Assembly: GCA_017646625.1 (NCBI GenBank)
Contig: JAGCMF010000037.1
Span: 44,121-108,120 of the forward strand
Reading direction: 5' to 3'
DNA: 64,000 nt
Origin: Alistipes sp.
GTDB taxonomy: Bacteria > Bacteroidota > Bacteroidia > Bacteroidales > Rikenellaceae
The notes under the pieces are model-generated. The model did no database searches. It saw nothing but the letters and a program-made list of their open reading frames with translations, and was not told the DNA's origin. Of the stretch, positions 12,710 through 17,008 are shown piece by piece. A program made the position numbers and the translations under genes. Position 1 is the first letter of the stretch. Every line of letters begins with the position of its first letter.

Positions 12710-12963
12710 GAATCTGGAAAATTCATTGCTGAGGGTGAACGACAGCACTCATCATCTGTATTGGTATGTGTATTCTTACTCATGCAATACGGGTGTGGGG
12801 TCTTGTATTGTTTATTTTCAGTTGGGCATTCCAGAATCTCTATTCGAATAAACAGAGAGCTGCTCCACACTTTCTTTTTGTACATACCCGACCGACACAC
12901 ACCATCAAGGGGCAGAATGGTAATTTGAATTGGAAAAGAATATTAAACCAAAATCATATTACT

Positions 12964-15900
12964 ATGAAAAAACTATTTACCTATTTGCTCGTTGCAATAA
13001 CGCTGATTATCGCAGGATGTAGCGAATCGTTTGATGATTCGGCAATTTGGGACAAACTCGACGACCACGAGAACCGCATCGCCAAACTCGAAGAGCTCTG
13101 CCAACAGATGAATACCAATATTTCATCATTGAAGACGATTGTAGAGGCTTTGCAGAACAATGACTATGTTACAGGCGTTACGCCCATCACCAAAGATGGC
13201 GAAACTATCGGTTACACCATTGCATTCACTAAATCGCAACCGATTACAATTTATCACGGTGAGGATGGCAAAGACGGTCAAAACGGAACTGATGGTAAGG
13301 ATGGACACTCGCCAATAGTTGGCGTTCGTCAGGATAGCGACGGTATCTACTACTGGACTTTGGATGGCGAATGGTTGCTTGATGACGCTGGAAACAAGAT
13401 TAAGGCAGTCGGTATCGATGGCAAGGATGGTCAAGATGGTGAGGACGGCAAAGATGGTCAAGATGGCACCGATGGAGTTGATGGTGAGAACGGCGCAGAT
13501 GGCACCGATGGAGTTGATGGTGAGAACGGCGCAGATGGTAAGGATGGCGTTGATGGCATCACCCCACAGCTCAAAATCGAGAATGACTACTGGTATATCT
13601 CGTATGACAACGGTTCAACATGGTCGCAGCTCGGTAAGGCAACAGGCGAGGATGGAAAAGACGGTGCTAACGGTAGTGATGGTGCAGACGGTAAGGATGG
13701 TGACTCATTCTTCCAAAGCGTAACACAGGATGAGCAGTATGTATATTTCACACTCGCTGATGGTACTGTTATCACCCTTCCAAAGAGCTTGGCATTGAGT
13801 ATCTCGTTTGATGAGGCCGATTTGGTGGTGATGTCTCCTAATTCCACTCGTCAAATAGGTTACACAGTAACAAGCGCAACCGAGAGTGTAAAGGTGGAGG
13901 TAATCTCTTCGGCTGATATCAAAGCAAAAGTGGTTGCTGATGATGCAAGCAGCTTAACTGGTAAAATCAATATCACAACAGGTACAGTGATTGATGAGTA
14001 CAGTAAGGTTGTTGTATTTGTGTCCAATGGCACTAAGGTTATTATGCGTAGTATCACATTCGAGGAGGCGGGCTTGATTGTCGAGGAGAATGCGAAAAAG
14101 TTTGCTGCTGCCGAGGGAGGAGAGATAACTCTCGAATTCTTGTCGAATATGGAGTGTGAGGCTGTTATTCCCGAAGATGCGCAGAGTTGGATTTCAGTAG
14201 TTCCTGCCACTCGCGCAATGGAAAAGCAGACAATTACACTGAAACTTGAGCCCAACGAGGGTTACTATCGTAGTGCAACCGTTACCGTTCAATCATCGGA
14301 CGGCTCACTAAAATTGGAGTATATTGTTGAACAAGATGGCAACTTGGGCGTCCAAATTGACCCTACAGCCATTCCCGATAATGAGATTTGGTATAGAACA
14401 ACTGATAATCAGAAATACGATATATATGATTGTACCAATTTATACGGTCATCAGCCATTTGATGCCCAAATAATATCTCATACATACGAAAATGGTATTG
14501 GTAAAATTATTTGTGATAAAGTTATAACTAAAATTAATGATCATGCCTTTGGAAATGGATGGGGACGTAAGCTCTTGGAATTGTATTTGCCAGAAACTAT
14601 AGAAATAATTGAAACTGGTGGCATTTGCGGAAATGCGCATTTAACAACCTTGAGGATTCCTAAAAGCCTAAAAGTGGTAGGATCTTATGGCTTAAATAAC
14701 CCTAATTTAAAGTCATTTACAGGCTCTCACATAACAGAAGACGGAAGATGTGTTATCATTGAAGATGGTTTTATGCCAAATTATGGCAACACACTAACTC
14801 CTGTTAAAAATTACTTAGCAGCCTTTGCTCCCGCTGGAATTACTGAATATACTCTTCCTGACAATGTGGAGATTCTTGGATGGTATGCTTTTGCTAGGTG
14901 TCCTGAATTGCCAAAGATTATTTTCAATGAAGGACTTAAGACAATAATGGGAGACTGTTTTTATCAATCACACTTAGATTGCGAAATAATTCTTCCGTCT
15001 ACTCTTGAAAACCTTGACCCATATGCTTTCCATGCCTGTTCAGGTATTAAAGGCTTCTATGGTAATGAGAAATTCCACACTTCAGATCATTTATGCTTGA
15101 TATTTGAACAAACAGCTTTTAGTGAACCTGAAAAGAATGGAAAGTGGATAAATCGTTTTGTCGGATATGACATAACAGATTATTCTATTCCTGAAGGTAT
15201 TGTTGGTATTGAAAACTATTCATTCGATCAAATGCCTAATCTTAAAACAGTCACTCTGCCGTCTTCATTAGCAGAAGTCGGAGCATATGCGTTTAATCAT
15301 TGTGATAATCTTGAAGCTTTATATGGTGAATGTGTATCAGATGACCACAAAGCGATTGTTTTTGATACACAGTTTAGGAAACTCGTTGTAACAAAGGATG
15401 TGACCAGTTACACTATACCTGATGATATTACAAGCATTGGATATGGCGCTTTTGACGATAGCCCTGAAATAGAAACAATAACAATGGGCGACCAAATCTC
15501 ACACATTGAAGGTTATGCTTTCAGTTATTGTCCAAACTTGAAATCCATCACATTATCTGCTGGATTAAAAGATATTAGTGGTTATAATGCTTTTATTCAC
15601 AGCCCGAATTTGGAAATAATATATTGTAGAGCATTGATTCCTCCTTCATGCGGTGATTACCAAATGTCTGAATTCCCAAATTTGAAATTTTATGTACCAA
15701 AACAATCATTAGCTTTATATCAAAATCATGCTGATTGGGTTCCATTTAGAAAATATTTTATTGGTTATAATTATACTGATTTGCCTAATATTGATACATA
15801 TATTTCATCTGACTACTCTAATGATGGCAAAGTTACCACTTTGCAAACCGCCACAAAGGGTAATGGTATTGATATAGTGCTGATGGGTGACGCTTATAGT

Positions 15901-16812
15901 GACCGTCAGATTGCGGATGGTACTTATAAAACGGATATGGAGAATCTATATAATAATCTATTTATAGAAGAGCCATACAAATCATTTAAGGACCACTTTA
16001 ATGTGTATTATGTAAATGTAGTTTCTGCAACAGAAGGATATGAATACAGTGGAGCTGCCTTAGGTGGATATTTTGGTAGTGGCACATTGGTTGGAGGAAA
16101 TGATAATACAGTATTTAACTATGCTCTCAATGCAATTTCTGAGGAGGAAATGGACGAAGCATTGTTAATCGTAGCAATGAACTCCGACAACTATGCAGGC
16201 ACATGCTATATGTACTATCCAACATACGCAGCAGGCTCTTATGGTAGTGGTGTGTCGGTGGCATACTTCCCCAAGGGAGGCGATGCCGAGACATTTGCTC
16301 AACTGCTCCACCACGAGGCGTGCGGTCACGGCTTTGCAAAACTTGCCGATGAGTATGCTTACGAGGGTATGGGAGCAGTTCCAAGCGACTATGTTTCGCA
16401 GATTCAGTCTCAGCAGAACAGTTGGGGCTGGTGGAAGAATGTCGATTTCACAAACGACCCAACAGCAACACACTGGAGTCACTTCATAAACGACACTCGC
16501 TATGCCAACGAGGGCTTGGGTGCTTACGAGGGCGGTTTGACCTATTGGACAGGCGTATGGCGACCAACCGAGAACTCTATTATGAGACACAATACAGGAG
16601 GTTTCAACGCTCCCTCGCGCGAGGCGATTTATTACCGCATCCACAAACTTGCCTATGGTGATAGTTGGGAGTATGATTACGAAGATTTCGTGGAGTGGGA
16701 TGCCCGCAACCGAGCTGCTGCCGCAATACGTGCGATGGTATATAAGCCTACGAACTACAAGCCTACGTACCCACCTGTAATCATAAACAAATCGTGGAAA
16801 GATGCAAAGTAA
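12964..16812 (+). CDS. Large surface lipoprotein: coiled coil, collagen-like stalk, BspA-type LRRs and M64 peptidase
   Basis: A 1282-residue lipoprotein. The start is ATG 12964, giving signal MKKLFTYLLVAITLIIAG and lipobox Cys19; an in-frame extension to 12766 has no signal logic. Order: coiled coil (about 27-62), DUF4988-like segment, collagen-like Gly-X-Y runs (about 99-113, 149-200 and 225-245), BACON-like beta domain(s) (about 280-455), leucine-rich repeats of the BspA/LRR_5 type (about 470-940), then a peptidase M64 domain (about 955-1275) with HEACGHGFAKLADEY (His1117-Tyr1131) as metal-binding site. M64 includes IgA-cleaving enzymes. It is likely exposed on the cell surface on a trimeric stalk. 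The LRR section is visibly AT-richer than the ends. The final residues YPPVIINKSWKDAK resemble the end of the next protein. Confidence 0.9.
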   Translation: MKKLFTYLLVAITLIIAGCSESFDDSAIWDKLDDHENRIAKLEELCQQMNTNISSLKTIVEALQNNDYVTGVTPITKDGETIGYTIAFTKSQPITIYHGEDGKDGQNGTDGKDGHSPIVGVRQDSDGIYYWTLDGEWLLDDAGNKIKAVGIDGKDGQDGEDGKDGQDGTDGVDGENGADGTDGVDGENGADGKDGVDGITPQLKIENDYWYISYDNGSTWSQLGKATGEDGKDGANGSDGADGKDGDSFFQSVTQDEQYVYFTLADGTVITLPKSLALSISFDEADLVVMSPNSTRQIGYTVTSATESVKVEVISSADIKAKVVADDASSLTGKINITTGTVIDEYSKVVVFVSNGTKVIMRSITFEEAGLIVEENAKKFAAAEGGEITLEFLSNMECEAVIPEDAQSWISVVPATRAMEKQTITLKLEPNEGYYRSATVTVQSSDGSLKLEYIVEQDGNLGVQIDPTAIPDNEIWYRTTDNQKYDIYDCTNLYGHQPFDAQIISHTYENGIGKIICDKVITKINDHAFGNGWGRKLLELYLPETIEIIETGGICGNAHLTTLRIPKSLKVVGSYGLNNPNLKSFTGSHITEDGRCVIIEDGFMPNYGNTLTPVKNYLAAFAPAGITEYTLPDNVEILGWYAFARCPELPKIIFNEGLKTIMGDCFYQSHLDCEIILPSTLENLDPYAFHACSGIKGFYGNEKFHTSDHLCLIFEQTAFSEPEKNGKWINRFVGYDITDYSIPEGIVGIENYSFDQMPNLKTVTLPSSLAEVGAYAFNHCDNLEALYGECVSDDHKAIVFDTQFRKLVVTKDVTSYTIPDDITSIGYGAFDDSPEIETITMGDQISHIEGYAFSYCPNLKSITLSAGLKDISGYNAFIHSPNLEIIYCRALIPPSCGDYQMSEFPNLKFYVPKQSLALYQNHADWVPFRKYFIGYNYTDLPNIDTYISSDYSNDGKVTTLQTATKGNGIDIVLMGDAYSDRQIADGTYKTDMENLYNNLFIEEPYKSFKDHFNVYYVNVVSATEGYEYSGAALGGYFGSGTLVGGNDNTVFNYALNAISEEEMDEALLIVAMNSDNYAGTCYMYYPTYAAGSYGSGVSVAYFPKGGDAETFAQLLHHEACGHGFAKLADEYAYEGMGAVPSDYVSQIQSQQNSWGWWKNVDFTNDPTATHWSHFINDTRYANEGLGAYEGGLTYWTGVWRPTENSIMRHNTGGFNAPSREAIYYRIHKLAYGDSWEYDYEDFVEWDARNRAAAAIRAMVYKPTNYKPTYPPVIINKSWKDAK
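13465..13536 (+). repeat. Tandem 36-bp exact duplication in the collagen-like stalk
   Basis: Two identical 36-bp units, 13465-13500 and 13501-13536, each encoding 12 residues (four Gly-X-Y triplets, GTDGVDGENGAD). In-frame slippage would change stalk length without breaking the gene. Confidence 0.9.
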
Positions 16813-17008
16813 ACGACAAATAACACGCAATATGTTGGCGGTAGCAGCGATACTGCTATCGCTGGCATATCTTTGTTCGTGTGTAGCAAGCAGAAAGATG
16901 AAAAAGGAGATTGACAAACAGCCACAGACAGATAGTGTAGATGTTTTTGTGCCGACACACCCGCCCGTAGTTGTTCCGCATTCGTGGCGTGAGAGCGGAA
17001 AGAAGTAA
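16802..17008 (+). CDS. Small lipoprotein overlapping the M64 gene, with matching C-terminal motif
   Basis: A 68-residue protein whose ATG lies 11 bp inside the end of the M64 gene in another frame, so the two are translationally coupled. It has a hydrophobic signal and a lipobox-like LCSCVAS (Cys25 or Cys27), then a charged, disordered tail. Its last residues, PTHPPVVVPHSWRESGKK, match the end of the large protein (PTYPPVIINKSWKDAK) at the pattern PT-x-PPV-[IV][IV]-xx-SW-[KR][DE]. I know no family for it. The coupling and shared tail suggest a common partner or sorting step; this is inference. Confidence 0.7.
   Translation: MQSKRQITRNMLAVAAILLSLAYLCSCVASRKMKKEIDKQPQTDSVDVFVPTHPPVVVPHSWRESGKK

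Follow-up and report, generated by a model that had tools for sequence, protein, structure and literature searches.

Why should two lipoproteins encoded by overlapping genes, one a large protease and the other a protein of 68 residues, carry the same tail? We addressed this question in a stretch of 64,000 nucleotides (the window) from an Alistipes sp. genome (G000, 1.87 Mb, ~91% complete). The protease tail, PTYPPVIINKSWKDAK, is encoded at 16762..16809 of the forward strand. The tail motif of the small lipoprotein, PTHPPVVVPHSWRE, is encoded on the same strand at 16952..16993, and the protein ends in PTHPPVVVPHSWRESGKK. A tail HMM built from 48 M64-like domains without a small gene found downstream was run against the six-frame ORFs of the window that span 30 codons or more. 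It returned the small ORF (E=1.6e-8) and the protease (E=8.2e-7), with the next best match at 1.1, confirming the claim of an earlier note on this DNA that the two proteins have the same C-terminal motif. The common tail is real, beyond chance. Comparison of the two tails also bore out the observation that their codons differ. A recent DNA duplication is ruled out as the origin of the tail, because the codons differ and the protease tail is also found in stand-alone Bacteroides and Phocaeicola enzymes.

We wondered how widely the tail is conserved. A scan of genome contigs, based on alignment A2, gave 497 confirmed stretches, and the best 80 of these are the related loci used below. The window protease was aligned with 71 of the 80 (alignment A3; left out were seven loci that failed length or end filters, one near-copy, and L146, where the wrong place had been picked). 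The motif proline is present in 72 of 72 rows. Val comes after it in 66 rows and Ile in 3 (V or I in 69/72), the position beyond is V, I, L or M in all 72, and the tryptophan is kept in 63; the 16 residues ahead of the motif are unconserved. Judged from this alignment, the tail is characteristic of the protease family. It recurs in the stand-alone enzymes from Phocaeicola coprocola (L169) and Bacteroides caecigallinarum (L151), and in remoter paralogues the end is either reduced to P-V/I-hydrophobic or different (as in the second protease of the window genome, G000:C33). The idea that the motif always occurs in adjacent pairs did not hold, as 48 of the 72 aligned proteases had no small gene found downstream. 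That the motif ends both proteins is true of the window pair but not of 4 of the 26 small lipoproteins, in which 21-45 residues follow the tryptophan, so that the tail is not strictly C-terminal there.

The protease gene (12964..16812, forward strand) encodes 1282 residues from the ATG at 12964, where the lipoprotein signal MKKLFTYLLVAITLIIAGC starts. This start is the probable one, judging by the lipobox; the ORF is open from 12766 (12766-16812, +) and counts 1348 residues from its first ATG. The signal is followed by DUF4988, collagen-like repeats, BACON, BspA-type LRR, Peptidase_M64 and the tail. The Pfam Peptidase_M64 model (PF09471) scored 64.1 bits against a curated cut-off of 26, and 57.6-72.1 bits in seven relatives. 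Profiles also matched the protease to 4df9 (E 4e-16) and 3p1v (3e-15); the solved chains matched all end before the tail, leaving the C-terminal extension uncovered. The zinc-site motif HEACGH (16312..16329, forward strand) is one residue longer than HExxH. The form HExxGH occurs in 72/72 domains of A3 with invariant H, E, G and H columns, although the rows were partly selected by that pattern. Compared with HExxHxxxGxxD, the protease is of the HEAxGHGFAKLxDEY type, in which an extra residue separates E from the second H, K replaces G, and D is kept. Because it exceeds the Pfam cut-off but departs from the strict pattern, we call the enzyme M64-like rather than canonical M64. Family M49 has a hexapeptide similar to HExxGH. 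Four paralogues (L239, L240, L242 and L243) share the longer motif, and a fifth, L238, has the canonical spacing. Other paralogous proteases (L035, L040, L041, L044, L058 and L061) stop shortly past the last conserved part of the domain, ahead of the tail. The window genome also encodes a second LRR-M64-like protease (contig C33, 31324-32238, L099), whose end differs (RPPKFMGEKPMFDKSKF) and gave no match to the tail profile.

The small lipoprotein gene (16802..17008, forward strand) encodes a signal with lipobox Cys27, a variable linker and the conserved tail. The product had no credible match in Pfam, NCBIfam or PHROGs. Across the 26 small-protein sequences, the start, the cysteine and the tail are kept, and the length ranges from 57 to 113 residues (57 for L113, counted from its ATG). 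pN/pS over all pairs of these sequences was 0.72 for the signal, 0.71 for the linker and 0.23 for the tail. The protease behaved similarly (first 27 rows of A3), with values of 0.25 for the catalytic domain, 0.71 for the linker and 0.32 for the tail. In this composition the small protein amounts to a tether for the protease's own conserved tail and hardly anything else, which suggests that it serves this protease as a dedicated ligand or guard. Its start overlaps the protease stop by 11 nt in the +1 frame (ATGCAAAGTAA, 16802..16812, forward strand), the length given in the earlier note. The overlap is equally long in 19 of the 25 loci that bear the small gene among the best 80 of 497, and it makes translational coupling of the two genes plausible.

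The two proteins differ in the residues that follow the lipidated cysteine. The protease begins C-SESFDD, an acidic start similar to the Bacteroidetes lipoprotein export signal (LES), given as S-DDDD for B. fragilis in excerpts of PMC5080379. The small lipoprotein begins C-VASRK, which is basic and without acidic residues, and its surface export is not predicted. The net charge of positions +2..+6 was negative in 17 of the 22 proteases read and zero in the other 5 (4 were unread, and the cysteine was mis-picked in L128), and positive in 24 of 26 small proteins (with the cysteine mis-picked in L115, L164 and L171). From the acidic, surface-export-like start of the protease and the basic start of its partner, we infer that the small protein may stay on the periplasmic face of the outer membrane.

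Where does the small gene occur? It lies behind the protease at 25 of the best 80 of 497 loci, 24 of them no more than 20 nt from the protease stop, with one (L118) at 150 nt. The script behind this count required a tail; a lipobox scan without that requirement returned the same 25 genes, together with frames that we took to be spurious, and no partner lacking a tail. The small gene is dispensable, as the other 55 of these 80 loci yielded none. Two of the 55, L130 and L135, stop within the protease, and the other end of the L130 contig carries a protease end with a small gene (L043). A search of 180 genomes of the genus found 17 small-gene places at E < 2e-9 in 16 genomes. Sixteen of the 17 adjoin a protease C-terminus, a count that includes G031 (the tail end alone before the contig edge), G036:C23 (an in-frame stop in the protease) and G068, where both genes are broken. 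The exception is G184 contig C22 (L093), an intact orphan small lipoprotein with an intact tail (932-1195) in a 96% complete genome where the protease profile had no match at E <= 1e-5. On the catalytic-domain tree, whose bootstrap is unsettled, presence of the small gene required 7 changes versus 20.3 under shuffled labels. The earlier note had made its proposal depend on conservation; orthologues of each protein carry the pattern, and the small gene is likewise conserved.

Farther afield, 393 genomes of the order gave, beyond the window's own gene, only weak matches to the small gene (E 1.1e-5 or worse), mostly to the signal and linker part. Among the matches listed, those in G365 and G042 (unopened) reach positions 62-64 of 69. 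The small gene had no match in plasmids, and 11 pattern matches in viral contigs included no relative. No third linked neighbour was common across groups at the 26 loci (ORFs of at least 90 codons, among the 12 largest families listed). The candidate shared neighbours at these loci were, by position, antisense protease frames, frames of the protease front or domain, or synteny of four related loci, and were rejected. A search of open-licence PMC text found no paper on the gene pair, the tail or the small gene.

We also scored which other proteins carry the tail. In the window genome the tail profile matched the two partners only (E 1.7e-11 and 8.0e-11, next 0.78), a result that is partly circular because the profile includes both tails. 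Of the 33 genomes of related loci, 30 had matches at E <= 0.01, at 58 places. The matched ORFs were protease- or small-lipoprotein-sized (by ORF length, most of them unopened) save two fragments of protease tails, a 70-codon ORF of G585 and a 45-codon ORF of G594. The profile is not exhaustive: it left three of the 33 genomes unmatched despite a tail or a W-less tail (L164, L151 and L169) and gave one match rather than two in G589. Within its reach, and with ORFs judged by length, it found no third tail carrier in the window genome and the 33 related genomes.

If the two tails serve one site, they might be expected to vary together. In 32 partner pairs, 8.53 of 16 tail residues were shared, versus 7.43 (sd 0.18) when the partners were shuffled, and 0 of 20000 shuffles reached the observed value. 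Co-variation was still detected with catalytic-domain distance held fixed (partial Mantel r 0.38, p 0.0012, 24 pairs with aligned domains), in a test that removes ancestry only partly and includes some near-copy rows; column by column, only four of the 16 positions gave p ~0.01 or less. The tryptophan is missing from both partners in L164 and L171, and an unusual histidine is common to both partners in L049 and L050 (PIIHNKSW with PVIHDHSW). The association between loss of the tail tryptophan and columns of the catalytic domain looks phylogenetic. Taken together, the restriction to two carriers in the window genome and the co-variation of partner tails speak for a single dedicated binding site rather than a general sorting tag. 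The earlier note's proposal of a shared binding partner, or of a competitor for the same site, fits the lack of a third carrier, the purifying selection focused on the tail of the small protein and the tail co-variation.

A further feature of the small gene is an RNA hairpin of 18 pairs (16830..16870, forward strand) within its signal-peptide codons, kept in many but not all relatives. It was first flagged by a terminator scan, and related genes fold alike (z below -3 for six of the seven sequences). With 200 synonymous codon replacements per gene, 17 of the 26 small genes had a stem at p <= 0.05, and 19 had a folding energy at that level. Control sets with 150 replacements gave 1 (stem) and 0 (energy) of 22 protease signal regions, and 5 and 1 of 37 mechanical ORFs of the window. 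The stem test was not significant in nine small genes, two of which, L108 and L115, are fairly close. Alignment A6 holds a chosen set of 18 of the 26 genes; those left out (L113, L118, L120, L123, L124, L147, L164 and L171) have an absent, weak or shifted hairpin. In this chosen set, 90.4% of cells pair, both sides have changed in 10 of the 18 pairs, and the covariation score is 0.429 versus 0.304 in shuffles (0 of 500) and 0.07-0.20 in slid controls. RNAalifold, unaided, predicted 13 of the A6 hairpin pairs. The many G-U pairs point to the mRNA strand.

A covariance model of the hairpin, run on 46 sources, gave nine matches at E <= 1, and all nine are small-gene starts. In 151 genomes it matched a single place in each of 9 genomes. 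It recovered 9 of the 18 small genes in the 46 sources and missed L113, L118, L120, L123, L147, L171, L046, L049 and L050. Rfam contained no credible match to the hairpin, and nothing near its cut-offs. A classical terminator is possible in the window and was rejected as a general reading, the T-run not being kept in all rows. Coupling, attenuation and message protection are candidate roles. The hairpin is a clear case of RNA structure encoded within signal-peptide codons.

What would the tails bind? We tentatively favour a reading, drawn from the sequence comparisons, in which both tails dock in one groove of the M64-like catalytic domain and the small lipoprotein acts in trans as a tethered pseudo-substrate or guard. 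The catalytic domain is the simplest receptor because the tail is present in cis, has two carriers, co-varies between partners and, as its most invariant element in both proteins, has a Pro-Val/Ile step that recalls known M64 specificity. The groove would most likely be the substrate cleft, with the invariant Pro-Val/Ile lying across the catalytic site as a pseudo-substrate. The tail of stand-alone enzymes would act in cis, and the small lipoprotein would supply one in trans. Staying on the periplasmic face of the outer membrane, it may hold or guard the newly exported protease before it reaches the surface, and the 11-nt overlap and the hairpin may tie its dose to translation of the protease. 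The full scheme, in which a cis pseudo-substrate tail regulates the protease family and the lipid tether of one lineage acts in trans in the periplasm, with a dual-coded hairpin and overlap setting the dose, is rather doubtful as a whole. If true, it would mean that a short linear motif on a membrane tether inhibits a bacterial surface protease, with a dual-coded RNA element for control. It would also give a simple rule for restraining a group of M64-like proteases of gut Bacteroidales, kin of IgA proteases: a 14-residue motif, in cis or tethered. The tails would also be ready-made peptide ligands for enzymes without known substrates.

The window protease resembles known M64 enzymes, namely the Thomasclavelia ramosa IgAse (ThomasA) and B. 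fragilis BF3526, in its Pfam match and its profile match to 4df9 and 3p1v. It differs in having HEAxGH rather than HExxH (BF3526 is gapped by one residue at this motif), a front of LRR, BACON and collagen-like parts, and a tailed C-terminal extension. Excerpts of PMC12237041 state that the IgAse hydrolyses the P-V bond of the IgA hinge with an essential P1 Pro, and according to those of PMC12402451, BF3526 prefers to cut after Pro, near N-termini. This Pro-centred specificity, as far as these sources describe it, corresponds to the Pro-Val of the tail. However, tight binding of short Pro-Val peptides by M64 enzymes is not a given, since the same excerpts report very poor cleavage of a synthetic hinge peptide by the IgAse (PMC12237041), no peptide density when ThomasA was crystallised with the hinge decapeptide (PMC12402451) and the work of BF3526 near N-termini. 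Pro-Val could be a mere docking motif. The zinc motif of this group is longer than in the studied enzymes, so specificity may differ; this, the orphan small lipoprotein of G184 and the dispensability of the small gene count against the catalytic-domain reading.

The arrangement of a protease gene with a small co-encoded partner recalls staphopain-staphostatin, SpeB-Spi and the C10 proteases with Bfi/Bti. Spi resembles the SpeB propeptide. In Bacteroides, a lipidated C10 protease has a co-transcribed small lipoprotein inhibitor; BtpA and BtiA of B. thetaiotaomicron are predicted lipoproteins, btiA starts 5 bp past btpA, and the Bti/Bfi group is 116-138 aa and mostly beta (all from excerpts of PMC3462683). 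Here too a small gene adjoins the protease gene, at 25 of the best 80 of 497 loci and 16 of the 17 genus places. The partner itself is different, with 57-113 aa that consist of a signal, a variable linker and a tail, no domain match, and, beyond the tether, a 14-residue motif in which the C-terminus of the protease itself recurs. If the reading holds, it would act like a cognate inhibitor but outside the staphostatin/Bti group.

Other partners for the tails have to be weighed. Both could bind a third, unlinked envelope protein in docking or scaffolding, with the small lipoprotein as competitor or adaptor. Such a protein would suit a shared tail and a partner that is only a tether, and also the intact tail of the orphan in G184, where no protease of this family was detected. 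It is somewhat unlikely, as the tail profile found no third carrier, no linked third gene emerged among the 12 largest families listed (ORFs of at least 90 codons), and pair-specific co-variation would require the third protein to co-vary too. A tag for sorting or secretion, read at the C-terminus by an export machine, is suggested by two lipoproteins that both end in the tail; a tag of this kind should be commoner than two profile matches in the window genome, and should not be followed by 21-45 residues beyond the tryptophan in 4 of 26 small lipoproteins. We regard it as very improbable. The sorting tag or general surface-assembly module raised in the earlier note is likewise unsupported, given the lack of a third carrier, the tail that is not strictly C-terminal and the small protein without acidic residues after the cysteine.

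The tail may also be part of the chemistry or the fold of the protease. It could be a cleavage site, the protease cutting past the conserved Pro of its own tail and that of the small lipoprotein for maturation or release. Although a characterised M64 enzyme does cut at Pro-Val, the same excerpts (PMC12237041) have the hinge peptide cut very poorly, and conservation of the tail extends to the Trp, seven residues past the Pro, which leaves cleavage improbable. The hydrophobic VVV/VII stretch and the presence of the tail in stand-alone enzymes would suit a structural strand of the protease fold, into which the small lipoprotein strand-swaps to hold the protease at the membrane. With ~16 unconserved, length-variable linker residues between domain and tail, such a strand is quite improbable.

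Other loci gave a few side observations. In two relatives, L124 and L147, an AhpC-TSA/thioredoxin-like domain lies ahead of the protease domain. At the G068 locus (contig C3, L060), the broken protease C-terminus and small gene look as if in joint decay. A lone 14-residue piece resembling the small-protein tail, with no tailed protease alongside, occurs in G106 (contig C50, L094, 4821-4862) and in G187 (contig C37, L095, 5574-5615), and both pieces sit between the same two genes.
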